Of a stretch of 64,000 bases of DNA, positions 51,944 through 64,000 are shown one piece after another. The stretch is from Ohtaekwangia koreensis (lineage in GTDB: Bacteria > Bacteroidota > Bacteroidia > Cytophagales > Cyclobacteriaceae). The stretch spans positions 124,001 to 188,000 of the forward strand of contig NZ_FUZU01000003.1 of assembly GCF_900167975.1 (NCBI RefSeq), given 5' to 3'. The translations under genes were made by a program, and so were the position numbers. The notes under the pieces are model-generated. The model was not told the origin of the DNA. It was given only the letters and a program-made list of their open reading frames with translations, and ran no database searches. Position 1 is the first letter of the stretch. Each line of letters begins with the position of its first letter.

Positions 51944-52171
51944 TTAGCGGCTCGTTGTTCTTTTTTCGTCACTTACATATTCCAAAATATCACCTGGTTG
52001 GCAGTCTAAGGCTTTGCAAATTGCATCTAAGGTGCTGAAGCGGATTGCCCTTGCCTTCCCTGTCTTTAAGATAGAAAGATTAGATAATGTTAAATCAACT
52101 CTTTGAGAAAGCTCATTCAAAGAAATTTTACGTTTTGCCATCATCACATCTAAGTTTACAATGATCGGCAT
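51944..52171 (-). CDS. YozG-type HTH regulator
   Basis: The 75-residue protein is a compact Cro/C1-type HTH: MIVNLDVMMAKRKISLNELSQRVDLTLSNLSILKTGKARAIRFSTLDAICKALDCQPGDILEY fits residues 2-65. Such small regulators are commonly found beside DUF2975 membrane proteins, as here (2 bp gap), and the pair is translated as a unit. Its target is unknown. Confidence 0.92.
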   Translation of the reverse strand: MPIIVNLDVMMAKRKISLNELSQRVDLTLSNLSILKTGKARAIRFSTLDAICKALDCQPGDILEYVSDEKRTTSR

Positions 52172-52173
52172 AG

Positions 52174-52710
52174 CTAAACAGTTAAGTCGTTTTCGTTTTG
52201 GATCTCAACTCCCTTTTTAAAAATAGTCGCAATAACATAGATTACAGCTGCCATCAAGATAAATGCCTGACTGTCTCCCCAAAACTGGTTTAGGTTGTCA
52301 ACAGTATAACCACGGTGTTGTAAATTTTCTGCTGTTTGTCGGGCTATATAAGTTAATATACCTATAGAAAAAGTGCAGTAAGATATTTTTGTTATCTCTC
52401 CTGAAACGATGCTGTTGAATGGTTTTGATAAATCTAGTTTGTGCATAAGCATGACAACTATATAAAATAAGTATGCTTTCAAAAGTGCGGCGACCAGGAT
52501 AAAACTATACATTCCGAAGAAAGCCCATTTACTACGACTATACATTTCACTTAAGTCCAACTTCTGATACAGGTTCTTGACAAATTCAGGTTTGTAAATA
52601 CTAAATACAAAATTGACTATCAAACCACCGGCTTCTATGCACAAGCCAACGAAAATGACCCACGCAACAATATATAAGCCTTTAAAGAGGAAGTTGTTTC
52701 TTTTGGACAT
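52174..52710 (-). CDS. DUF2975 family membrane protein
   Basis: The 178-residue protein has about four membrane segments (LYIVAWVIFVGLCIEAGGLIVNFVF, FFGMYSFILVAALLKAYLFYIVVMLM, ISYCTFSIGILTYIA, AFILMAAVIYVIATIFKKG). The LSKPFNSIVSGEITKISYCTFSIGILTYI region is the family signature. It is partnered with the HTH gene downstream. Function unknown. Confidence 0.9.
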   Translation of the reverse strand: MSKRNNFLFKGLYIVAWVIFVGLCIEAGGLIVNFVFSIYKPEFVKNLYQKLDLSEMYSRSKWAFFGMYSFILVAALLKAYLFYIVVMLMHKLDLSKPFNSIVSGEITKISYCTFSIGILTYIARQTAENLQHRGYTVDNLNQFWGDSQAFILMAAVIYVIATIFKKGVEIQNENDLTV

Positions 52711-53478
52711 AATTCTTAAAACTTTAAGTTATGCCAAAAGTAATAAAAAATTACTGATAAACAATAAAAATATATTCTAATTAAATAAATATGTTTTCAT
52801 ATTAATCACAACGATATATTGCGATTTGGGATTCGTGTCGCTTGATTTCACTTTTCTTTGATTGATCGGAATGAGGATATTGATTCTCCCTGTTCAATGG
52901 CTTTGTTGGTATATAACCCTAAAAGTATACTATACTACATCTTCAGGTATATTTTGTCTTGCCCAGTAGACTGGAGGGTCGGTATTGCTTAGTCTGTCCA
53001 AAAATAGTGCTGCCTGTCAGAAGTAATACAAGGCTTAAAAAAAAGAAATCGTATGATCATCCTGTTTGTAATTATTAGTTTTAAAAACTTTTTTCTCAAT
53101 GTTTGGTTGTTAGTCGTTTTACAATGACCGCCAACAATTGGCTAACCGCATGTCGCATATATTGCGATATATATGAATGTCGTTTATATATTCCTTTTGT
53201 CCGTCATGACTTTGCAATGCTAGTGGCCAATCAGTTGAGCCACCCAATATCCACGAAATCTGAAGCATCTCAAAATTGTACCATTAATTTCTCAAGCGGT
53301 ATTATCGATTTATAACGTATACCTCACTTAAATAAAGGATACGCAATGAATTGTACATATATAGCACACAATACATCCTCTACTATGATATATTACGAAT
53401 ACACTATTTGCAAGTATATACCTTGAAATAGTGAGAATTTTGAGGATATGGTGAACCGAACAGGATCACTTCGAACCA
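52711..53478. other. region without a recognisable gene
   Basis: The 70-codon frame at 53103-53315 has an unusual composition and no family resemblance. AT-rich tracts are common near 53390. A complete terminator sits at the right end without any gene before it, which suggests a lost gene or a small RNA. Confidence 0.35.
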
Positions 53479-53513
53479 AAAAAGCCTGAAATATTTATAA
53501 TTTCAGGCTTTTT
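53479..53513 (+). terminator. orphan terminator
   Basis: AAAAAGCCTGAAAT and ATTTCAGGCTTTTT form a perfect 14-bp stem with a 7-base loop. No gene on either strand ends nearby: the closest on the plus strand is over 2 kb upstream, the minus-strand gene ends at 52174. Confidence 0.85.
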
Positions 53514-53640
53514 GATGCTATGTAGATTCGAACCTTTTTGTAAGGGATTTATTAAAAATTCAAAGACTGGGATAACTCTAATCCTCCTCCTTTGAACATT
53601 TATAGCAACTAATTTTTAAAATGTGTGCCCCTTATCCATA

Positions 53641-53654
53641 GTCCGCTTGCGAAC
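53641..53654. promoter_or_regulatory. candidate upstream activating site before an ADOP gene
   Basis: GTCCGCTTGCGAAC is an imperfect inverted repeat 88 bp upstream of the -24 element, close to the position where sigma-54 activators bind. A related GTCC-x-C-x2-GCG-x2-C site occurs before the 62240 gene. Confidence 0.4.
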
Positions 53655-53727
53655 GTTTTTGTTCAATTCCATAACTTGCTTACTTGACAAAAGGCTGATT
53701 ACGTTCTTGATTCCACATCATGGTCTG

Positions 53728-53742
53728 TGGCATTGGGATTGC
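53728..53742 (+). promoter_or_regulatory. candidate sigma-54 (-24/-12) promoter
   Basis: TGGCATT-N4-TTGC places GG and GC exactly 10 bases apart, the hallmark of sigma-54 promoters. Transcription would start near 53754, about 56 bp before the ADOP ATG at 53810. The same 11 specified bases occur before the other plus-strand ADOP gene (62202-62216). Confidence 0.6.
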
Positions 53743-53809
53743 AATGTTGATTGCTCCGTCAACTATTTGCTGGTGGACAATAGATTTAGTAGTCTTAAAC
53801 CTATGATGA

Positions 53810-56224
53810 ATGTTATATAACTATTTCACCATTGCTCTCCGCAACCTTCTGAAGAATAAGACGCACACAGTTATCAATGTGGCAGGCCTTTCTTTGAGTA
53901 TTGCCAGCGTGTTTTTAATTACCCTTTATATTAGAGGCGAGCTCAGCTACGACAAATTTCATGACAAAGCTGAAAACCTTTACAGGATTTCATGGGAAGA
54001 CAATAACCCACAAACGCGCACGCCACATCCATTGGCACAAGCGCTCGTGCAAGATTTTCCAGAAGTCGAAAGTGCAGTAAGTCTTAGCCCGCTATGGGCA
54101 TCAGGGCTCACGCGTGAAACGCACTCTTTTAGAAATCCTGAAAAAGACGCGCGCTATGACGAGAAGAATATATTATCGGTAGATAGTACCTTTTTTAAAG
54201 TCTTCAGTTTCCCGCTGGTGAAAGGTGACCCTGAAAACGCTTTGAAGAAAGTCAATGGATTACTCATTTCTGAATCGATGGCTAAAAAGTACTTCGGTGA
54301 AAGCGATCCTATCGGGAAACATTTGAGCGTTGACGGTGATCAATATCTTGTCGAAATAGTTGGCGTGTTCAAAGATGTGCCGGTTTATTCTCACTTTCAT
54401 TTTGACTTTCTCGTTTCATACGTACGCGAAAAATTCTTAGACCCTGGATCTGAATATTATATGTGGAAAGACTTCGGACACTTTAATTACATAAGACTTA
54501 AACCAGGTACGGATGCGAAACAGCTGGAAAGTAAAATTATGGAATGGTCCAGAAAGTATATTAATTGGAGTGACCACGATTTAAAGTCCCTTGCCAGACA
54601 ACATTATGGATTCAAACTGCAGCCCGTTACCGATATTCACCTCAAGTCTAGATTGCGTTGGGAATTAGAACCTAATGGAAATATTGACTATATCTATATT
54701 CTTACAGCCGCAGGACTTCTCATCCTTATCATTGCTTGCATCAATTTTATAAACCTCACTACGGCAAAGTCAGCGGAGCGCGCAAAAGAGATTGGCGTAC
54801 GTAAAACAATGGGAGCACTCCGCTCTCAACTATCATTGCAATTTTTAACTGAATCAGTCGTTGTATCGATGATCGCTATCGTGTTATCGATAGTTATCGT
54901 TCAAATCTCTCTACCATTTTTCAATGACGCTACTGGCCTGTCATTTCAAATACAGTATAGCCAATATCTTTTTATTTTTATTGCTTTTGGCATTTTTATC
55001 GGTGTGTTGTCCGGAATATACCCGGCACTTTATCTGACGTCAGTCAAACCTCATTTGATTTTGAAGGGGAAGTTCATTCTCACCAACACTGGAGCAAGAT
55101 TGAGAAGGGGACTTATTATTTTTCAGTTCTCGATGTCGATGATATTGATCTCTTCCACGATCATCATTTTCAATCAGCTTAATTTTTTAAAGAATAAAAA
55201 CCTTGGCTTTGACAAAGACGAGGTCATTATTGTTCCTAATAAGCATGATGATGGTATGAAGGGGTTTGACGTACTCAGGAATGAGTTGCTGAAGATGGAA
55301 GGTGTAACGTCAGTCTCAGCAAGTTCGAATATACCGGGCCGCCAATTTAATCAACATTCAATTGCATTGGCTAAGAAACCCCAGGATCACATTAGTTCTT
55401 CGGAGGTATATATTGATTATGATTTTTTTCAAGCATTAGGAATCAAACTTAAAGATGGCAGGTTTTTTCTTCGTGAAAATCCGGCTGATTTAGCAAGTAC
55501 TTTTATCATCAATGAAACAGCTGCAAAACAATTGAATGCGAATGGCTCTGTGGTAGGTCAAGAAATTATTTGGGATCGTGATGAATATCTCATTCGCGGA
55601 ACTGTGGTGGGCGTTATAAAAGATTTCCATTTCCAATCGTTACATGAGCCTATTCGACCATTGTTATTTGCACTCTCAACAGAACAATTTAATCACATTC
55701 TGATTAAAATTAATACGAAGAATTTCGACCAAAAAATTGCTGCGATAGAAAAGGCTTATAAAATAGCAGAGCCTTACTTCGGATTCGAATTTACATTTTT
55801 GGAAGACAACCTGAATCAACAATATATCGCTGAACAGAGAACAGGACTTATTGTTGGTGGCTTTTCAATTACTGCCATATTGATTGCCTGTTTCGGCTTA
55901 TTCGGAATGTCAATACTCACTTTTCATCAGCGAATAAAGGAATTAAGTGTAAGAAAAGTATTGGGAGCAACCTCCATGAATTTATTTGTGATGCTGGTAG
56001 AAAATTTCACAAAGTTGATTTTAGTATCGGTTTTAGTATCTATACCCATTGTCTGGTGGGGTATGGATGCATGGCTTGACAACTTCGATTATAAGATCAA
56101 TATCAACCCTGTGACCTTTATCATCTCCGGGCTGGTATTGATTTTGGTATCGTGGATTACACTAAGTTATTTTGGTGTCAAGGCCTCTAGATTGAATCCT
56201 GCTGACACATTAAAAAATGAATAG
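53810..56224 (+). CDS. ADOP/MacB-like ABC transporter permease
   Basis: The 804-residue protein has the ADOP layout: N-terminal helix (KTHTVINVAGLSLSIASVFLITLYIRGELSYDKFH), YRISWED at the start of the core domain, the first FtsX block (IACINFINLTTAKSAERAKEIGVRKTMGA), the middle helix LIIFQFSMSMILISSTIIIFNQ, a second core (RFFLRENPADLASTFIINETAAKQL), and the final block (CFGLFGMSILTFHQRIKELSVRKVLGAT). The paired ATPase is not adjacent. It probably exports a peptide or lipid. A sigma-54-like promoter lies upstream. Confidence 0.93.
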   Translation: MLYNYFTIALRNLLKNKTHTVINVAGLSLSIASVFLITLYIRGELSYDKFHDKAENLYRISWEDNNPQTRTPHPLAQALVQDFPEVESAVSLSPLWASGLTRETHSFRNPEKDARYDEKNILSVDSTFFKVFSFPLVKGDPENALKKVNGLLISESMAKKYFGESDPIGKHLSVDGDQYLVEIVGVFKDVPVYSHFHFDFLVSYVREKFLDPGSEYYMWKDFGHFNYIRLKPGTDAKQLESKIMEWSRKYINWSDHDLKSLARQHYGFKLQPVTDIHLKSRLRWELEPNGNIDYIYILTAAGLLILIIACINFINLTTAKSAERAKEIGVRKTMGALRSQLSLQFLTESVVVSMIAIVLSIVIVQISLPFFNDATGLSFQIQYSQYLFIFIAFGIFIGVLSGIYPALYLTSVKPHLILKGKFILTNTGARLRRGLIIFQFSMSMILISSTIIIFNQLNFLKNKNLGFDKDEVIIVPNKHDDGMKGFDVLRNELLKMEGVTSVSASSNIPGRQFNQHSIALAKKPQDHISSSEVYIDYDFFQALGIKLKDGRFFLRENPADLASTFIINETAAKQLNANGSVVGQEIIWDRDEYLIRGTVVGVIKDFHFQSLHEPIRPLLFALSTEQFNHILIKINTKNFDQKIAAIEKAYKIAEPYFGFEFTFLEDNLNQQYIAEQRTGLIVGGFSITAILIACFGLFGMSILTFHQRIKELSVRKVLGATSMNLFVMLVENFTKLILVSVLVSIPIVWWGMDAWLDNFDYKININPVTFIISGLVLILVSWITLSYFGVKASRLNPADTLKNE

Positions 56225-56266
56225 TAATTTATCAAGTTAGCTTCTTGTGTGCAATTTAAAATCTAG

Positions 56267-56398
56267 ATCGGTGTCTATGATGAGATGCCAGTAGTCATAA
56301 AATATAGTCTAACTCCATACGCCGAAACTTTAGAAAAAGTGATACCTGCATTAAGAGATTGGGGCGCTAATCATGGAAAACAAATTTTGGGTAAATAG
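56267..56398 (+). pseudogene. HxlR regulator C-terminal remnant
   Basis: Translation from 56267 (ATG at 56285) gives VYDEMPVVIKYSLTPYAETLEKVIPALRDWGANHGKQILGK with a natural stop at 56396-56398. This matches the last 40 residues of HxlR proteins (compare VYPEVPPRVEYKLTALG in the intact HxlR at 28140). A stop precedes it and the DNA-binding domain is missing. It ends 3 bp before the ACR3 remnant, so the two stubs abut. Confidence 0.6.
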
Positions 56399-56401
56399 AG
56401 G

Positions 56402-56638
56402 TTATAAGTAGACTTTTGAATTTGTAGGAAGCAACAAATTAGTCGAGTAACGTTGAAGTATATAGGCAGAGGCACCTCGATAAGAGGGCCGACTACGCCT
56501 GCATATGCTTGCCCGGAGTTGATACCGAATACACCTGTTGCGACAGCACGAAATTGTTACACCTATTCCGATCAACATTGCCAGAAAAATCCACAGCATA
56601 AGGTAACAATCTAAAAATCGTAATTTAGATTGGCTCAT
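56402..56638 (-). pseudogene. internally deleted ACR3-type arsenite efflux pump
   Basis: The 78-codon frame begins with MSQSKLRFLDCYLMLWIFLAMLIGIG, the start of ACR3 family arsenite permeases. The usual 300-plus-residue core is missing: a shifted frame after 56560 encodes AVATGVFGINSGQAYAGVVGPLIEVP, the C-terminal signature (the NNF before it also matches). So about 270 codons are deleted between the ends, with small shifts. The remaining tail decays. As the last gene of the arsenic operon it was presumably the efflux pump. Confidence 0.7.
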
Positions 56639-56657
56639 AATGTATAGTCTTAATGGT

Positions 56658-57500
56658 TTAGAATGCAGACGAAAGCTCAGATTCGTATTTTAAATGGGTA
56701 TAGGTAATAAAATCCTGGATACGCTTCGAATCTGGATATAGTAGATGTGCCTTCTTTAAAACGCGGAATGCTTCATAATAATTTTCTTGGTTGATGAAGT
56801 CAACAGCAACGTTGTAATAATGAAGTGCAGCTAATTCATGTAAAGAAATAGACTTAAAAACGATATCCTTATTAAAAGGCGCAGATAAGGACTCTTGTTT
56901 AGTTACCTCCTCCGCTTCGTTTTCGAGATACGATGCAACTCTTTCCTCCACTTTTTCGAAATCATTTACAAAGCCATGCGCAGGGTCCGTTGCTTCAAAT
57001 AAAATACAATCTCCACTGTCTAAAGTGACTGTCAGAAATATATGATACCTAGTCTCGTATATGTTTGGCCTATATCCAAGTTGGGATAAAAGACAAGCAT
57101 ATAGTGCAGTTCCGGAGACACAGTTATATTCTCTATTGCTGAAAATATTACTAAAGGTCTCTGAGTGCTTATAGTGTTTCAGATATTTTTTGTGGACATC
57201 GTAAAAAACGTAGCGCAGGAATTTCGATTCGTCCTTGAATTTGCTGCGCTTGGTTTGAAGCTTCTGTGCATACGCAAACAATTCATTTCTGACATTTGTA
57301 TATCTAACTGAGTCTATCCTCGGATCATATGCCAACAAAAATATAAGTGGATTACAATCATTGTTGCTGCTATTCTGAAAGGCTTCCTTCTCAAGGTTAG
57401 AATCGAACAAAAGACAATAGCTTAAGCCGGGTATATTCTGACCTACCAGCGAGTGACTTTTGAATAAAAGCAAACTAATGACTAGTAAACTTCCTTTCAT
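56658..57500 (-). CDS. exported transglutaminase-like protein with TPR
   Basis: About 280 residues with a signal peptide (LLVISLLLFKSHSLVGQ). The middle has a papain-like/transglutaminase core: Cys in REYNCVSGTALYACLLSQLGYRP, His in RYHIFLTV, and Asp in LFEATDP, in the order of the Cys-His-Asp triad. The C-terminal 80 residues form a TPR-like pair (AALHYYNVAVDFINQENYYEAFRVLKKAHLLYPDSKRI). It lies between the ACR3 remnant and the DsbD-like gene. Its role in the arsenic operon is unclear. Confidence 0.6.
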   Translation of the reverse strand: MKGSLLVISLLLFKSHSLVGQNIPGLSYCLLFDSNLEKEAFQNSSNNDCNPLIFLLAYDPRIDSVRYTNVRNELFAYAQKLQTKRSKFKDESKFLRYVFYDVHKKYLKHYKHSETFSNIFSNREYNCVSGTALYACLLSQLGYRPNIYETRYHIFLTVTLDSGDCILFEATDPAHGFVNDFEKVEERVASYLENEAEEVTKQESLSAPFNKDIVFKSISLHELAALHYYNVAVDFINQENYYEAFRVLKKAHLLYPDSKRIQDFITYTHLKYESELSSAF

Positions 57501-57553
57501 ATTTTTCGCATGCCTGCCGGCGGCTATAAAGAGTTAAAGTCCAATTCTTATTC

Positions 57554-58921
57554 TTATTCATTTAGGAACAATCCCATTTCCTCCGTTTTCATGTAGTCAT
57601 TTGTTTTATAGATAAGATCGCCTTCAGTATTGGTGATCACAAAAAAAGGAAGTCCAACCTTTAACTCTGGAAAACGCGAGTCTACGCTATACGCTTTAAA
57701 CTCTGGCGTGGTGTCATAAATCTTTAGTAGCACGGCATTCTCAAGGGAAGCAATTAATAGTTCATTCTCGTGTGTCATCTTTTCAAAGGCTTTACAATTC
57801 GTGCACCAGTTAGCGTAAAAATCAATGAATACATTTTTACCGGTCTTCTTCGCTTCGGCATACGCAACTTCTTTATCAAGATACCAAGTGAGCTTGCCTT
57901 TCTTTTCTGTTCGTGTGGTAACGACCTGTGTCGACATAGCGTCCGGTGCAGAAGGAGTCGAAGGTATTGGCATGAACCCGCGCGTGAGTATCAATGCACC
58001 AATAACAGAAGATAATATAAGCAACGATCTTTTTATACGCTCATCCACCAAGCGTTCTGATGATTGAAAATAGTAAGAGGATATAACAACAATGAGCGAA
58101 CCTATACCGATGAGGCCGATCGCTTCATCAGAAAAATTGTAGATCAACAGAGCTTTTTCAATATAGGTCCATCCGAAATATACAATGACAATGCCCAGTA
58201 TATATTGAACATACATCATCCATCTACCCGATTTAGGAAGGCTCACGCCGAATACGCCAATGAGTAAAAATGGAATGCCTAGGCCTAAGCCAAATGAAAG
58301 CATTTTGAAAGCGGATGCAGAAGCACTTAAAAAAGAAAATTCACCGCCCATATTACTGGCAAGTCCAATCAGAATACTCACTACTACCGGGCCGACACAA
58401 GACGATGCTAAAAGTCCCGCGCCCATTCCTAAAAGAAATGTTCCAAACACCCCATTGTTCTTTGTATCAGTCTGCCCGCCAAACAAGGAGATATGAATAA
58501 ACCCTGCCGCAGATATACCCATAATTATAATCGTTATACCAATGATAAGATTTGTTATGGGTAAGCGCATTACCTGATTGAATGCACCACCACTAAAGGA
58601 GGCCACCACACCGAATATCAAATACATTACAGCAAGACCAATGAAATAACTCAAGGGGTGAACAAAGTGTGACGAGCCAGCTCCGCGTGCTTTAATAACA
58701 TTTGCCGTGATTGGATATAGCGGATATACACAGGGCAATAAACTCGCCAGCAATCCTCCCAGAAACAAAAAGAAGTAAGAAGTGATGGAGATATTATCAG
58801 CAGCAAGTTTGCCTTCAATCCATGAATTCATTTCAGCAATGCCAACCTGGGCAAAAGCCCAAGCTGGTATGCATGTCAACATCACAATGAAAATTAGCAG
58901 GAGTATCTTCTTCGAAGCCAT
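57554..58921 (-). CDS. DsbD-type thiol:disulfide interchange protein (CcdA + thioredoxin)
   Basis: The 455-residue protein starts with a signal peptide/N-terminal helix, then the CcdA-like helices (SYFFLFLGGLLASLLPCVYPLYPITANVI and GMGAGLLASSCVGPVVVSILIG, each with conserved Cys), and ends with a thioredoxin domain with WCTNCK near residue 375. It carries electrons from the cytoplasm (via thioredoxin) to the periplasm. With trxB and the exported ArsC-like phosphatase alongside, it likely supplies electrons for arsenate reduction. The gene begins 8 bp before the phosphatase gene ends. Confidence 0.9.
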   Translation of the reverse strand: MASKKILLLIFIVMLTCIPAWAFAQVGIAEMNSWIEGKLAADNISITSYFFLFLGGLLASLLPCVYPLYPITANVIKARGAGSSHFVHPLSYFIGLAVMYLIFGVVASFSGGAFNQVMRLPITNLIIGITIIIMGISAAGFIHISLFGGQTDTKNNGVFGTFLLGMGAGLLASSCVGPVVVSILIGLASNMGGEFSFLSASASAFKMLSFGLGLGIPFLLIGVFGVSLPKSGRWMMYVQYILGIVIVYFGWTYIEKALLIYNFSDEAIGLIGIGSLIVVISSYYFQSSERLVDERIKRSLLILSSVIGALILTRGFMPIPSTPSAPDAMSTQVVTTRTEKKGKLTWYLDKEVAYAEAKKTGKNVFIDFYANWCTNCKAFEKMTHENELLIASLENAVLLKIYDTTPEFKAYSVDSRFPELKVGLPFFVITNTEGDLIYKTNDYMKTEEMGLFLNE

Positions 58922-58928
58922 CTATATC

Positions 58929-59618
58929 TTATGCTTTAATCAGAGAAAATGCATACAGAATTTCGCGGCCAATCTGATGAACACGTTCCGCATACTTGGC
59001 GGCTTCCTGAGGTGTACCATCAAAATCTTTTGGATCATCATACGGCGTGGCTATACGTACAGTGGCTCCTGATACAACCGGGCAATTCTGGTCTGCTTGT
59101 GAGCAAGTCATCACGGCACCAAATCCACTCTTCGGATTTCCTTCGCCATCGTATTTTTTGGAGAAAGCTTTTATAGCAACGGCTTCATCAGAAAAGCGTA
59201 CTTCATATACCGGGTTTGTGCCTTCGGTGGTTCTCTTGATTTTGAAACCGGCATCTTCCATTGCTTTTACTGCACGAGGATTAAATGCGGTTGCTTCCGT
59301 ACCACCGGAGTAGGCAACTACATTCGGTATACCGTAGTAAGTCGCTGCGGTCTGCGCCCAAATTTGCGAAATATGACTTCTACGCGAGTTATGGGTGCAT
59401 ATAAAAATCAATTCTGCCTTCTCCCCAGCCTTTACTTTGCTTTCAACAAAGAGCGCAAGCTTCTTTAAGGCCTTCTTTCGTTCTTCAGGGATTTGATCAA
59501 ACTCTTTACTATAAGCATTGATGTTTTTCGATACAGGTGCATAGAAAGCAACTTTCATTTCAGGTGTAAATGACATGAGTATGGCAGTTAAAATTGATAG
59601 AAAAATGATTCGTCTCAT
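58929..59618 (-). CDS. exported ArsC/low-molecular-weight tyrosine phosphatase-like protein
   Basis: The 229-residue protein has a hydrophobic N-terminus (IIFLSILTAILMSFTP) with a likely signal peptide, an unusual extended N-terminal region, and the phosphatase/ArsC loop CTHNSRR (CX5R, Cys74 and Arg80). A second Cys pair (TCSQADQNC) lies further on, giving a disulfide that thioredoxin could reduce. It reduces arsenate to arsenite; the signal peptide suggests the periplasm, coupled to DsbD-like electron supply. It is in the arsenic operon, 8 bp before the DsbD gene. Confidence 0.85.
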   Translation of the reverse strand: MRRIIFLSILTAILMSFTPEMKVAFYAPVSKNINAYSKEFDQIPEERKKALKKLALFVESKVKAGEKAELIFICTHNSRRSHISQIWAQTAATYYGIPNVVAYSGGTEATAFNPRAVKAMEDAGFKIKRTTEGTNPVYEVRFSDEAVAIKAFSKKYDGEGNPKSGFGAVMTCSQADQNCPVVSGATVRIATPYDDPKDFDGTPQEAAKYAERVHQIGREILYAFSLIKA

Positions 59619-59646
59619 ATTGGTTTAAGTTTGATATATATACTTT

Positions 59647-60591
59647 TTATTGAATGGCAAGTTCAAGTTCCTTGGCGGCCAGGTGCCGTTCCGCTTCAAG
59701 CGCTGCCATACAGCCCGTCCCAGCAGCGGTGATCGCTTGTCTGAAATTTTTATCCTGCACGTCTCCACAGGCGAAGATTCCTTCCAGGTTGGTCTTCGTA
59801 GAACCTGGTGTTGTCATGATATAGCCTTGTTCGTCCATATCTATATACCCTTTAAAAATATCCGAGTTTGGTTTATGGCCGATGGCTACGAAAAAACCTT
59901 CAACAGCGATGTCTTGTGTAAGGCCTGTGATTGTGTCTTTTATGCGTACACCGGTTACCTCTGCATCGCCCAGAATCTCTTCGGTATCTGCATTATAGTA
60001 TATTTCGATGTTGGCTGTCTTCTTAACGCGTTCTTGCATGATCTTGGAAGCACGCAGTTGATTTTTACGTACGATCATATGAACCTTCGTGGTTAATTTT
60101 GATAGGTATAAAGCTTCTTCACACGCTGTGTCACCTCCACCAACAATAGCCACTTCTCTGCCTCTATAGAAGAAACCATCACAAACAGCACAAGCTGAAA
60201 CACCACCACCGTTTAATCGCTTCTCCGAAGGTATACCAAGCCATTTGGCCGAAGCACCCGTGGATATAATTATACTTTCAGCTATAACTCGTTTTTCTTC
60301 ATCTATGGTAACTATATAGGGGTAGATTGAAAAATCAACTGCTGTAGCTATACCCATCCGGATATCGGTTCCGAATCGGGTTGCCTGTTTCTTTAAATCT
60401 TCCATCAGATGCGGTCCCATTATACCATCGGGATAACCGGGAAAATTTTCAACGTCATTTGTTGTCATCAGCTGGCCACCGGGTTCTGGTCCGGTATACA
60501 TCACCGGTTTCAGATTGGCCCGCGCAGCATAAATTGCAGCTGTATAGCCAGCAGGCCCCGAGCCTATAATTAGTGTTTTAATCGTCTCCAT
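59647..60591 (-). CDS. trxB: thioredoxin-disulfide reductase
   Basis: About 314 residues. FAD loop GSGPAGYTAAIYAA at the start, redox CAVCDG at 134-139, NADPH loop GGGDTACEEA and the C-terminal FACGDVQDKNFRQAITAAGTGCMAALEAE. It reduces thioredoxin with NADPH. Its location in the arsenic operon indicates electron supply for the arsenate reductase. The ATG at 60591 (METIKT) is preferred; the open frame upstream to 60666 lacks an ATG and runs into the arsM gene. It starts 48 bp after arsM. Confidence 0.95.
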   Translation of the reverse strand: METIKTLIIGSGPAGYTAAIYAARANLKPVMYTGPEPGGQLMTTNDVENFPGYPDGIMGPHLMEDLKKQATRFGTDIRMGIATAVDFSIYPYIVTIDEEKRVIAESIIISTGASAKWLGIPSEKRLNGGGVSACAVCDGFFYRGREVAIVGGGDTACEEALYLSKLTTKVHMIVRKNQLRASKIMQERVKKTANIEIYYNADTEEILGDAEVTGVRIKDTITGLTQDIAVEGFFVAIGHKPNSDIFKGYIDMDEQGYIMTTPGSTKTNLEGIFACGDVQDKNFRQAITAAGTGCMAALEAERHLAAKELELAIQ

Positions 60592-60638
60592 TTTTTGTGA
60601 GCAAAGTTTTTTTTGAATGGCTGAAGTTGATCTATAGG

Positions 60639-61487
60639 TTAACTGCAACATCCCGGAGCGCAGCAACTTTCAGGCTTCTCGCCGAAAACGGTTATGCTGA
60701 AAATGCCCGTGTGGCCATTTGTAAATTCATGAATCTCTTCAACTGTTAAATACTCTTTCAGAATCTCTTCCGGAAGCGTGATGCGTTTTTCCTTTTGCAC
60801 TATAAGGTTCGTAAAGCCAGCCTGTTCAATAATTGACAAGTATTCTTGTTTCTGAATGGCCCCCGCTACACATCCTGCATACATCTCTGCGCTTTTCTTT
60901 AAGCCTTCAGGAAGTTCTCCTACCAGCACAATGTCAGAGACACTGAAGTGTCCACCTTTCTTCAGTACCCGGAAGGTCTCAGCGAAAGCTTGCTTCTTAT
61001 TGGGCACTAGATTTAAGACGCAATTACTAACAACAACGTCTGCTATATTTCCTGCCAGTGGCATGTTTTCAATATCTCCCTGCCGAAACTCCACGTTGGT
61101 ATAGCCTAGCTTATTGGCATTGACCTTTGCCTTTTCAATCATCTTGTCAGTGAAATCTATACCTATAACTTTTCCTTTTTCTCCGGTAAGTGATCTTGCC
61201 ACAAAGCAATCATTACCAGCACCCGATCCTAAATCAACCACAGTATCGCCTTCTTTTATCAGAGCAAATTCCGTAGGTAAACCACAACCAAGTCCTAAGT
61301 CTGCATCCGGATTGTATCCTTTTAAATTGGTATAGTCGTCCGCCATTACTTTATAGTCAACTGTTGAGCAGCTACTGGTTGCACCACAGCAACTTGCAGC
61401 ATTACTGTCTTTGTCTTGTTCAGCAATCTTGCTGTACTTTTCTCTTACTATTGTCTTGAGTTGTTCGGATGTCTCTTTTGAATTCAT
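60639..61487 (-). CDS. arsM: arsenite S-adenosylmethionine methyltransferase
   Basis: The 282-residue protein has the SAM-binding motif DLGSGAGNDC at 85-94. It carries the three conserved As-binding Cys: GLGCGLPT (68), SNCVLNL (about 156) and YAGCVAGA (about 206), plus a cysteine-rich N-terminal CCGATSSC and C-terminal CCAPGCCS. ArsM converts arsenite to methylated, partly volatile forms. It follows arsR by 61 bp, across an ArsR-like site, and precedes trxB. With the ACR3 pump destroyed, this would be the main detoxification route encoded here. Confidence 0.95.
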   Translation of the reverse strand: MNSKETSEQLKTIVREKYSKIAEQDKDSNAASCCGATSSCSTVDYKVMADDYTNLKGYNPDADLGLGCGLPTEFALIKEGDTVVDLGSGAGNDCFVARSLTGEKGKVIGIDFTDKMIEKAKVNANKLGYTNVEFRQGDIENMPLAGNIADVVVSNCVLNLVPNKKQAFAETFRVLKKGGHFSVSDIVLVGELPEGLKKSAEMYAGCVAGAIQKQEYLSIIEQAGFTNLIVQKEKRITLPEEILKEYLTVEEIHEFTNGHTGIFSITVFGEKPESCCAPGCCS

Positions 61488-61514
61488 ATAGTTAAGATTA
61501 GATAGTGTATTATT

Positions 61515-61529
61515 GTAATATTACGTTAC
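61515..61529. promoter_or_regulatory. ArsR-like site between arsR and arsM
   Basis: The palindrome GTAATATTAC (61515-61524) is followed by GTTAC. AATATTACGTTAC (61517-61529) is an exact 13-bp copy of a sequence in front of arsR. The pair fits an ArsR operator. Confidence 0.65.
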
Positions 61530-61548
61530 GATCAAGCATAAAAAATGA

Positions 61549-61878
61549 CTAGCAACAGTCACTTTTCTTCACGTGCCTTGTGAATATATTCAAGAACATG
61601 TCTCTGGCTTCCTCCCATGCCGCATCATCAATGCAGTAGTTAATTTTTGGGCCTTCGACCTCTCCCTTGATGATACCTATTTGTTTAAGTTCTTTCAAAT
61701 GCTGTGTAATGGTTGACTGAGACAATGGAAGTACATCTACCAAGTCATTACAAATACACGTTTTATTATCCAGTATATACTCTAAAATTGCTACTCGCGC
61801 CGGATGGTCGAAAGCCTTCGCGAATTGAGCGATCTTGTTTTGGCGTTTTTTGAAAAGTTCTGATTTTGTTATTCCCAT
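61549..61878 (-). CDS. arsR: ArsR family metalloregulator
   Basis: About 109 residues. The winged helix has TCICNDLVDVLPLSQSTITQHLKELKQIGII, with Cys41 and Cys43 in the CxC metal-binding box, and a C-terminal KKSDCC gives further Cys. It releases DNA when arsenite binds and so derepresses the arsenic operon. The ATG at 61878 is chosen over a TTG at 61896, since the operator lies directly upstream. It is the first gene of the operon. Confidence 0.95.
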   Translation of the reverse strand: MGITKSELFKKRQNKIAQFAKAFDHPARVAILEYILDNKTCICNDLVDVLPLSQSTITQHLKELKQIGIIKGEVEGPKINYCIDDAAWEEARDMFLNIFTRHVKKSDCC

Positions 61879-61883
61879 GCTAC

Positions 61884-61907
61884 CGTAATAACGCAATATT
61901 ACGTTAC
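61884..61907. promoter_or_regulatory. ArsR-like operator before arsR
   Basis: CGTAATA and TATTACG form a 7-bp inverted repeat with a 6-base spacer (61884-61903), and AATATTACGTTAC (61895-61907) repeats the arsM-upstream site exactly. It lies 6-29 bp upstream of the arsR start. Confidence 0.7.
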
Positions 61908-61929
61908 TTTGTTACAAAGTACAGCAACC

Positions 61930-62105
61930 ATGCCCAAAGAAATTTTTGATTTGTCCGAAATAGCTCGTTTTAAGCAGAAATTCAATTATGAACTCAAACC
62001 AATAAAAGACATGTTACTCCACCGACGGAAGAAATGTCTACAGATCAATGGATGGATTTCGTGGAGCAAACCCGGCAAAGTATCTTGAATAATCCTGATC
62101 AGTAA
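61930..62105 (+). pseudogene. small frame with a probable one-base deletion
   Basis: ATG at 61930 begins MPKEIFDLSEIARFKQKFNYELKPIKDM. From about 62015 the protein-like sequence continues in another frame (TPPTEEMSTDQWMDFVEQTRQSILNNPDQ) to a stop at 62103-62105. The length (176 bp) is one base short of a multiple of three, as a one-base loss would give. No family was recognised. Confidence 0.35.
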
Positions 62106-62125
62106 CAATAACCCATCACACATCC

Positions 62126-62153
62126 GGACAACTTTGTCCACCAGCGGGCAAAC
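62126..62153. promoter_or_regulatory. candidate upstream activating site before the second ADOP gene
   Basis: GGACAACTTTGTCC (62126-62139) is a perfect palindrome. TTTGTCC-ACCAGC-GGGCAAA (62134-62153) overlaps it with one mismatch. GTCC begins 67 bp before the -24 element. It shares the GTCC-x-C-x2-GCG pattern of the 53641 site. Confidence 0.45.
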
Positions 62154-62201
62154 TCATTCTCTAACAAAAAGTTAATTATCATAGGATCAATGAGTTTGGG
62201 T

Positions 62202-62216
62202 TGGCATTTGTCTTGC
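62202..62216 (+). promoter_or_regulatory. candidate sigma-54 (-24/-12) promoter
   Basis: TGGCATT-N4-TTGC has GG and GC 10 bases apart, identical in all 11 specified positions to the 53728 site. The start would be near 62228, about 12 bp before the ATG at 62240, an unusually short leader. Confidence 0.6.
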
Positions 62217-62239
62217 CTGTGCAACACAAACCCCTTCGT

Positions 62240-64000
62240 ATGCTATTGAAAACCTTCGCGCGTAGTTTGAAGAAAAACAAATTCTTTTCTTCTCTCAATG
62301 TTCTTGGACTCTCACTCGGTATGGCTGTATTTCTGCTTGCCGCTCTATACGTAAAATTCGAAACGAGCTATGAAGATTTCAATAAAGATGCAGCTTCCAT
62401 TTATCGCGTGAACCTGGATGTATATGTGAATAATGAAAAGGTACTGTCGAGTGCAGAAAATTATCCTGCAGCGGGCCCTGCCCTTGCTGCCCTACCCGAG
62501 GTAACAGCCTATACACGCTTGTATAATCTTGGCTATAAAAACAATGTGATCATCACCAATGAAGAAGCTAAGCCTGACGCCATTGCCTTCAAACATCGCA
62601 GCTTTCTGTATGCCGATTCATCTTTTCTTTCGATGATGGGATATACACTTGTTGCGGGCGATATCAACACGGCACTTGCTGCACCTAACTCTGCCGTCAT
62701 CACTAAACACTATGCCACACTATATTTCGGCACCGAAGATCCCATCGGCAAAACGCTACGCATGCGTGATGATGATAACAACAATGAACTTGTGCATGTA
62801 ACCGGTATAGTAGATAAAGTACCTGCCAATACACATTTGAAGTTTGATATACTTTTCTCCTATAAGACATTATTCTCCAGGCAAGCCAACAACCAACCTG
62901 ACTACGGTATAAATAGATTTGACAGAAGCTGGCTCCGAAGTGATATGTATACCTTCATCCGGTTGATGCCGGGCACGGATGTTAAAGCATTGGAGGCAAA
63001 GCTGCCGGGCCTGGTACGTAGCCACACGGCAGGCATGAAGCCAAATAACGAGCGGGATGTTTTATCGCTTCAACCTCTAAAAGGCATTCACCTCACCTCC
63101 CACTTGGCCGAAGAAGCAGAAACCAACGGAGACGAACGTATCGTATACTTCATCGGTATTATCGGACTCTTTGTTCTTGCTATAGCCTTGATCAACTATA
63201 TAAATCTGACCACAGCCCAGGTGATGGAACGTGCCCGTGAAGTGGGTGTACGCAAAGTGATGGGCGCCATGAAGTATCAGCTCATTACTCAGTTTTTAGC
63301 GGAAGCCGCCTGTATTAACATGTTCAGTATACTCGTTGCCTATGCAGTTGTCGGTATAGCACTTCCCTTCTTCAATACTATATCCGGGCTGTCCCTTCAT
63401 GTGTCATACCTGTTGCAGCCGTGGTTTCTAACCTTGCTTGCTATACTTTGGATTGCCGGCACATTGCTCTCCGGATTTTATCCGGCTCTTGTGCTCACTT
63501 CTTTCAAGCCTGTGGCTGTTGTAAAAGGAAAGCTCAGGCACAGTGCCGGTGGTATAGTGCTTCGTAAATCACTTGTTGTATTTCAATTCATGGCATCGGT
63601 TTCACTTATCGCCAGCACCTTAATTGTTTTCAACCAACTGGAGTATATGTTGAAAGGTGACATCGGGATGAATATAGATCATGTATTAGTAGTGGAACGT
63701 CCGAGTATCGGGCCTGGTCAGCCCGGGTTCAATGCAACCGTGAATACTTTTCGCAATGAGTTGAAAAGCAATGCTGTCGTTGAATCCTTTACAATGTCAT
63801 CCACCGTACCTGGCAAGCAGCGCGAATACAAGACCGTTGTTAAACTATATGGCGCTTCCGATGATCAGCTGTTCACGGTTCGCATGAACAGTATGGATTT
63901 TTCTTTTCTGGAAGTATATAACATGAAGCTGCTGGCAGGACGCATGTTTTCGGAAGACTTCGTGCAGGATCCTGATACTTCAGTAGTAATCACAGAATCT
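62240..64000 (+). CDS. ADOP/MacB-like ABC permease (3' end beyond window)
   Basis: 587 codons are visible. The N-terminus MLLKTFARSLKKNKFFSSLNVLGLSLGMAVFLLAALYVKFE is an ADOP signature. Then come the first core domain, the first FtsX block (IALINYINLTTAQVMERAREVGVRKVMGA), the middle helix LVVFQFMASVSLIASTLIVFNQ and the start of the second core. The C-terminal FtsX block is cut by the window edge. It lies just after the arsenic genes but on the opposite strand, with the sigma-54-like promoter just upstream. Confidence 0.92.
   Translation, partial: MLLKTFARSLKKNKFFSSLNVLGLSLGMAVFLLAALYVKFETSYEDFNKDAASIYRVNLDVYVNNEKVLSSAENYPAAGPALAALPEVTAYTRLYNLGYKNNVIITNEEAKPDAIAFKHRSFLYADSSFLSMMGYTLVAGDINTALAAPNSAVITKHYATLYFGTEDPIGKTLRMRDDDNNNELVHVTGIVDKVPANTHLKFDILFSYKTLFSRQANNQPDYGINRFDRSWLRSDMYTFIRLMPGTDVKALEAKLPGLVRSHTAGMKPNNERDVLSLQPLKGIHLTSHLAEEAETNGDERIVYFIGIIGLFVLAIALINYINLTTAQVMERAREVGVRKVMGAMKYQLITQFLAEAACINMFSILVAYAVVGIALPFFNTISGLSLHVSYLLQPWFLTLLAILWIAGTLLSGFYPALVLTSFKPVAVVKGKLRHSAGGIVLRKSLVVFQFMASVSLIASTLIVFNQLEYMLKGDIGMNIDHVLVVERPSIGPGQPGFNATVNTFRNELKSNAVVESFTMSSTVPGKQREYKTVVKLYGASDDQLFTVRMNSMDFSFLEVYNMKLLAGRMFSEDFVQDPDTSVVITES

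Follow-up and report, generated by a model that had tools for sequence, protein, structure and literature searches.

Why would an arsenic operon persist once its arsenite pump is gone, and on which side of the membrane does its arsenate reductase act? Both questions are raised by the minus strand of a 64,000-nucleotide stretch of Ohtaekwangia koreensis DNA (contig NZ_FUZU01000003.1, positions 124,001 to 188,000; hereafter the window), taken from a genome of 7.24 Mb in 6 contigs (G000). An earlier note on this DNA had described an operon arsR-arsM-trxB-arsC-dsbD followed by a transglutaminase-like gene and a gutted gene for the arsenite permease ACR3, and this order, with an ACR3 remnant at the 3′ end, is indeed present. 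The gene content, the signal sequence and catalytic residues of ArsC, its pairing with DsbD, the ACR3 remnant and a second, intact ACR3 are all read from the sequence itself. Taking these observations together, we consider it probable that the operon is an arsenate-reducing module with its reductase outside the cytoplasmic membrane and a dedicated DsbD electron relay; its ACR3 has been lost.

An ArsC with a signal sequence and a DsbD partner

The arsC-like gene (58929..59618, minus strand) encodes a protein of the thioredoxin-type arsenate reductase family (PF01451, 25.2 bits against a cut-off of 23.2). We aligned it with the ArsCs of 27 loci in which an ArsC gene likewise stands just before dsbD (the module loci described below, L078 left out), and in all 28 rows Cys74 and Arg80 of the C-x5-R P-loop, as well as Cys172, Cys179 and Pro180 of the C-x6-C-P motif, were invariant, with CTHNSRR and C-x6-CP kept throughout; the two motifs together form the triad of thioredoxin-type ArsC. 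A profile search of the PDB with the ArsC alignment (A3) returned arsenate reductases such as 1jl3, matching as single stretches, and its top hit, a WD-40 repeat protein (E 3e-16, summed over weak repeats), was taken as repeat noise together with designed propellers.

Known thioredoxin-type ArsC enzymes are cytoplasmic. The window protein shares the P-loop Cys and Arg and the C-x6-C-P cysteines with those of S. aureus pI258 and B. subtilis (TIGR02691, with the fold of low-molecular-weight protein tyrosine phosphatases, LMW-PTP), but it differs in having a signal sequence, and most rows examined carry about 50 residues before the P-loop. The signal sequence, MRRIIFLSILTAILMSFTPE (59559..59618, minus strand), was recognized by hydropathy and comparison, with a hydrophobic 10-mer of mean 2.87 beginning at position 4 after MRR under a simple hydropathy rule, not SignalP. 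Among the 28 aligned members, 10 have a lipobox by pattern and 7 of the other 18 an Ala-x-Ala end by eye, and the ArsC paralogue beside the intact ACR3 on contig C6 has no signal segment. A sister genome of the same genus (G005) keeps the signal sequence, the first 25 codons being identical at 71 of 75 nucleotides as against 22 of 40 for the 40 nucleotides upstream of the ATG (ungapped); a signal-less internal start at Met21 was rejected, as that residue is Lys in G005.

The adjoining dsbD-like gene (57554..58921, minus strand; PF02683, E 5e-22) encodes a protein with its own signal peptide, judged by eye, about eight transmembrane segments, counted by a simple hydropathy scan in which overlaps were joined by eye, and a thioredoxin domain at residues 345-429 with a CTNC active site (57635..57889, minus strand; PF13899, E 3e-13, and DsbD domain structures by profile). 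Cys64 and Cys175 in the membrane part and Cys373 and Cys376 of the thioredoxin C-x2-C are invariant in the four rows of alignment A1. Like the DsbD/CcdA thiol-disulfide interchange proteins it combines a DsbD_TM domain with a C-terminal thioredoxin domain, but it lacks the N-terminal alpha domain, with about 20 residues between the signal peptide and the first transmembrane segment, and its genomic partner and putative acceptor is the exported ArsC. Because a signal peptide is followed by about eight transmembrane segments, the usual topology would place the thioredoxin domain outside the cytoplasmic membrane.

The ArsC-DsbD pair in other genomes

The DsbD alignment was used to scan a collection of 84,980 species genomes; the scan, seeded by two short peptide patterns and hence not exhaustive, gave 74 loci, of which we examined 31 (L066-L096), the other 43 (L097-L139) having weaker DsbDs. 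An ArsC gene lay just before dsbD (gap <600 bp) in 28 of the 31, the exceptions being a fragment (L096) and two loci without an ArsC match (L093, L094). By record title these 28 module loci comprise 14 from Bacteroidota, 6 from Verrucomicrobiota and 8 from Pseudomonadota, and the idea that the pair is an oddity of the window was rejected on this recurrence.

To these we added an ArsC survey not chosen by DsbD, in which 119 of 395 genomes from the phylum gave a match to an ArsC profile at E 1e-30 and every listed place was taken in, and the ACR3 loci, giving a pool of 174 distinct ArsCs (L001, L005-L034, L066-L096, L140-L266) once duplicates and rows lacking the motif or having a core <150 aa (e.g. 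L028, L265) had been dropped. Signals were called by the hydropathy rule, with L081 and L095 called signal-bearing by eye, and an ArsC counted as beside DsbD at a gap <600 bp on the same strand, this DsbD family being the sole one sought. With DsbD, 29 ArsCs were signal-bearing and one was not; without it, the numbers were 7 and 137 (Fisher p 3e-25, kinship uncorrected). The one signal-less ArsC beside DsbD is the second ArsC of L071 (8340-8960), after dsbD, and the first in that locus is signal-bearing. A second ArsC also directly follows dsbD in L064 (6652-7380), where it is lipoprotein-like by eye.

Taken by itself, the survey has 124 distinct rows, L001 among them: one ArsC had both signal and DsbD, five had a signal only and 118 had neither. 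The L071 locus appears in the survey as L149/L244 and was removed as a duplicate, and at both places where the survey meets DsbD, the window (L140) and the L071 contig, a signal-bearing ArsC precedes it. In this unbiased sample the DsbD pair is thus rare, and ArsCs with predicted export but without DsbD outnumber those with it. That every exported ArsC has this DsbD was rejected, since seven lack it in the flanks examined: L158, L162, L164, L170, L242, L012 (705-1436) and L017, which stand in arsenic operons or alone.

Near the ArsC-DsbD pair, the 28 module loci have arsR-like genes in 20, trxB in 7, ACR3 in 6, aquaporin-type MIP in 4, arsM in 3 and arsA in 1, so that at least one of these six is found in 23. 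All six verrucomicrobial loci have trxB after dsbD. ACR3 was present in only 6 of these 28, in flanks reaching up to 7 kb, but stood within 2 kb on the same strand of 67 of the 117 survey ArsCs that lack a signal (p 7e-4, kinship uncorrected). One verrucomicrobial cluster (L086, 3746-12292) contains ArsA, an exported ArsC, DsbD, TrxB, ArsR, DUF6428, a second LMW-PTP-type ArsC and MIP, with ArsA, ArsR, the second ArsC and MIP identified by Pfam, and neither ACR3 nor ArsB was matched in its genome.

The trees bear on how often the pair arose. In a quick tree of all 174 ArsCs, those of the window and G005 fell in a branch of 11 with support 95, the other nine members being signal-less ArsCs from their own family and eight of them standing beside ACR3; the nearest was L011, where arsC has arsM on one side and ACR3 on the other. 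A careful tree, for which the author picked 51 of the 174 ArsCs, placed the two with 13 signal-less rows (99/96 support), and the 29 exported, DsbD-linked ArsCs were united in 0 of its 200 bootstrap trees. A single origin of all 36 exported ArsCs is disfavoured (approximately unbiased (AU) test, p 0.016), and the DsbDs group together when two Spirochaetota rows serve as outgroup. Because the window ArsC falls among signal-less, mostly ACR3-linked relatives, pairing with DsbD likely, though not provably, occurred more than once.

The ACR3 remnant and the second ACR3 operon

With the genome's intact ACR3 as tblastn query against four sequences, residues 3-26 aligned to 56635-56564 (54% identity, E 5e-4) and residues 301-326 to 56547-56470 (85% identity, E 1e-8), both on the minus strand. 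In an ungapped comparison with 41 ACR3-like open reading frames, the best match among those listed was identical at 17 of 25 residues for the N-terminal piece and 24 of 26 for the C-terminal one, whereas shuffled pieces, each compared with one frame in 300 trials, reached a maximum of 10; a search of the whole genome returned the C-terminal piece alone from the remnant (E 1.3e-7). The two segments are thus homologous to ACR3, in order and on one strand, and no full-length open frame remains, about 274 codons being gone (the earlier note had estimated about 270) and the frame being changed. The note's view that a 78-codon frame (56402..56638, minus strand) joins both ends of ACR3 did not hold: that frame carries ACR3 in roughly its first 26 codons only and has no match in Pfam or NCBIfam at E 0.01, and the C-terminal signature FGINSGQAYAGVVGPLIEVP is read in another frame, so a fusion was rejected. 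With the C-terminal piece out of frame, we read the lesion as a deletion plus a frame change. Next to it lies a second relic, the C-terminal 37 residues of an HxlR-family regulator (56285-56398, plus strand; PF01638, E 2e-4), between an ABC-permease-like frame, so labelled by eye, and the ACR3 remnant.

The operon is also present in G005, where 5.29 kb align at 90% nucleotide identity and ACR3 breaks off after two codons. Misassembly is an unlikely cause of the loss, because the sister genome's own assembly also lacks this ACR3 and its visible lesion is different; the two lesions may reflect two events, or one followed by later erosion. Codon changes between the species, synonymous against non-synonymous, numbered 25/5 in arsR, 52/9 in arsM, 69/15 in trxB, 62/8 in arsC and 87/25 in dsbD, and since they are mostly silent we take both species to have maintained the operon and lost its ACR3. 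The operon's position differs between the two genomes: window flanks 52000-52809 and 62104-64000 are only 1155 bp apart on G005 contig C47, and the G005 operon is on C46, with its left flank found elsewhere in G000 and its right flank mostly unmatched there. Window positions 52810-62103 (about 9.3 kb, the ABC-permease-like gene and the ars operon) occupy the place of the 1155 bp of C47:240757-241912.

An intact ACR3 of 345 aa (TIGR00832, 435.5 bits against a cut-off of 282.8) is encoded elsewhere in G000, at C6:2581866-2582900, in a second operon arsR-arsC-ACR3 whose arsC is signal-less, and G005 likewise has an intact ACR3 elsewhere, with arsR and arsC, 98% identical to that of G000. ArsB was unmatched in 27 genomes including G000, ArsP, ArsJ and ArsK not being searched for, and it was rejected as the replacement pump. 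The earlier expectation that arsenite must either find a different way out or stay behind is therefore largely answered by this second operon. Its further reasoning, that detoxification rests on reduction plus methylation, implies a reductase inside the cell, which sits poorly with an ArsC that has a signal sequence and a DsbD partner; for these two reasons arsenite from the window ArsC probably arises outside the cytoplasm.

Proposed electron path, alternatives and neighbouring genes

The textbook view of ArsC-type detoxification is that arsenate is reduced in the cytoplasm and the product then pumped out. Drawing on the gene set and on what is established about how thioredoxin-type ArsC and DsbD work chemically, we propose that NADPH would reduce TrxB and then cytosolic thioredoxin, which would pass electrons through the membrane domain of DsbD to its periplasmic thioredoxin domain, and that this domain would re-reduce the Cys172-Cys179 disulfide formed in ArsC with each arsenate reduced. 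The exported enzyme would turn arsenate into periplasmic arsenite, leaving through the outer membrane by porins, while arsenite entering the cell would be met by ArsM methylation and by the ACR3 of the other operon, with ArsR controlling the genes. The operon would formerly have ended in ACR3, since lost in two sister species, a loss presumably tolerated because the second operon has an intact copy and because the reductase probably no longer makes arsenite in the cell. Export in vivo, the flow of electrons, arsenate as substrate and the reason for the loss of ACR3 are what we infer here. A broader proposal, that a DsbD-driven exported ArsC reduces arsenate at the surface before or instead of its entry, needs no pump in its operon and has arisen at least twice, the gutted ACR3 being its footprint, is tentative and in our judgement rather doubtful.

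Several observations weigh against an exported, DsbD-fed arsenate reductase, and some of them lend themselves to other explanations. The operon might be a redundant ars operon with an ordinary pseudogene, its ACR3 having decayed because the second operon supplies the pump, and its ArsC being a normal cytoplasmic enzyme whose N terminus and DsbD neighbour are unimportant. Intact ACR3 operons in both genomes agree with this, and the different loci of the operon make loss at a rearrangement edge plausible, but the association of signal with DsbD (29/30 versus 7/144), the lipoboxes of the relatives and the predominance of silent changes in arsC and dsbD do not, and we regard this explanation as unlikely. 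Less likely again is that the protein acts in the periplasm on some other substrate, as a thiol or phosphatase enzyme that DsbD keeps reduced and that simply happens to lie in ars operons. This explanation draws on the 5 of 28 module loci without any of the arsenic genes sought, where another substrate is possible, on the three closest plasmid relatives, two annotated as protein-tyrosine-phosphatase and one unannotated (more distant ones among the matches listed are annotated arsC), and on scores below the ArsC equivalog cut-offs: the window ArsC reaches 49.8 bits against TIGR02691, and the ACR3-linked paralogue 44.9, where 174.3 is needed, so we treat the former as a relative of that equivalog and do not file it as a member. 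Against it stand the triad, invariant in all 28 rows, the arsenic genes of the other 23 module loci and the nearest relatives in the tree, most of which adjoin ACR3. As the window ArsC has neither a clear cleavage site nor a lipobox, it could be anchored in the membrane, yet that its catalytic domain should then face the cytoplasm seems very improbable, given the positive residues (MRR) before the hydrophobic stretch and the lipobox or Ala-x-Ala ends of its relatives.

The remaining points concern the breadth of the pairing and the absence of a pump. Since DsbD was the route to most of the module loci, the pooled table is weighted towards that sample, the association owes its strength to the DsbD side, and the survey by itself offers only two DsbD places; seven signal-bearing ArsCs do without this DsbD in the fetched flanks; the dsbD of L095 is split across two frames; and of two ArsC relatives scanned with Pfam, L083 fell below the LMWPc cut-off and L069 was unmatched. 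Unity of the 29 DsbD-linked ArsCs was not rejected by the AU test (p 0.149; 0.067 in the careful tree), leaving a separate origin unproven. An ACR3 above cut-off occurs somewhere in 18 of the 26 module genomes searched for ACR3 and ArsB (L068 and L076 left out of the 28; completeness unstated for most).

Reduction of arsenate outside the cytoplasm has a precedent in the respiratory reductase ArrAB, a molybdoenzyme that would share its site of action with the module proposed here but is an unrelated protein. In excerpts of PMC2963123, a DsbD homologue was reported in ars operons, mostly with arsC (7/8 instances), and a putative arsenate reductase system was proposed, ArsC being taken as cytoplasmic and transmembrane electron flow hence thought less likely; the CcdA described there lacks the thioredoxin domain that the window DsbD has. 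An LMW-PTP-type ArsC in the Melioribacter roseus ars operon is predicted to be periplasmic in excerpts of PMC3534657, which place it with an efflux pump and a small disulfide protein, contain no survey and leave DsbD unmentioned. Searches of the open-licence PMC literature listed no further account of an exported ArsC together with DsbD, and the excerpts of PMC4220137, PMC3543383 and PMC6620896 do not treat the pair. If true, an exported, DsbD-fed ArsC would explain the DsbD/CcdA genes of ars operons, a puzzle left open in 2010 (PMC2963123). It would also mean that bacteria that do not respire arsenate could still convert it outside the cell into arsenite, which is mobile, a point relevant to how arsenic moves in water. 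The earlier finding about ACR3 seems to us largely correct in its facts but of modest weight, and the operon a promising lead towards a module built on an exported arsenate reductase.

The other genes of the operon, all on the minus strand, are arsR (61549..61896, an ArsR/SmtB-family repressor above the PF01022 and NF033788 cut-offs, its frame opening at a TTG with an ATG at 61878), the arsenite methyltransferase gene arsM (60639..61487; NF008823, 357 bits against a cut-off of 263) and the thioredoxin reductase gene trxB (59647..60591; TIGR01292, 392 bits against 343). For trxB the ATG at 60591 is the more likely start over an upstream TTG at 60666, because the G005 trxB frame starts at the same ATG. 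The last gene (56658..57500) encodes a protein with a signal-like N terminus by eye and no Pfam or NCBIfam match; the name transglutaminase-like comes from the earlier note alone, and we leave the protein unassigned. It is fast evolving, with 46 synonymous and 41 non-synonymous changes against G005 when compared in register without alignment, and it has homologues in 39 of the 59 genomes searched, O. koreensis included. Away from the operon, the O. koreensis genome has another trxB-like stretch, at C4:218839-219746, with 66% nucleotide identity to the trxB of G005.

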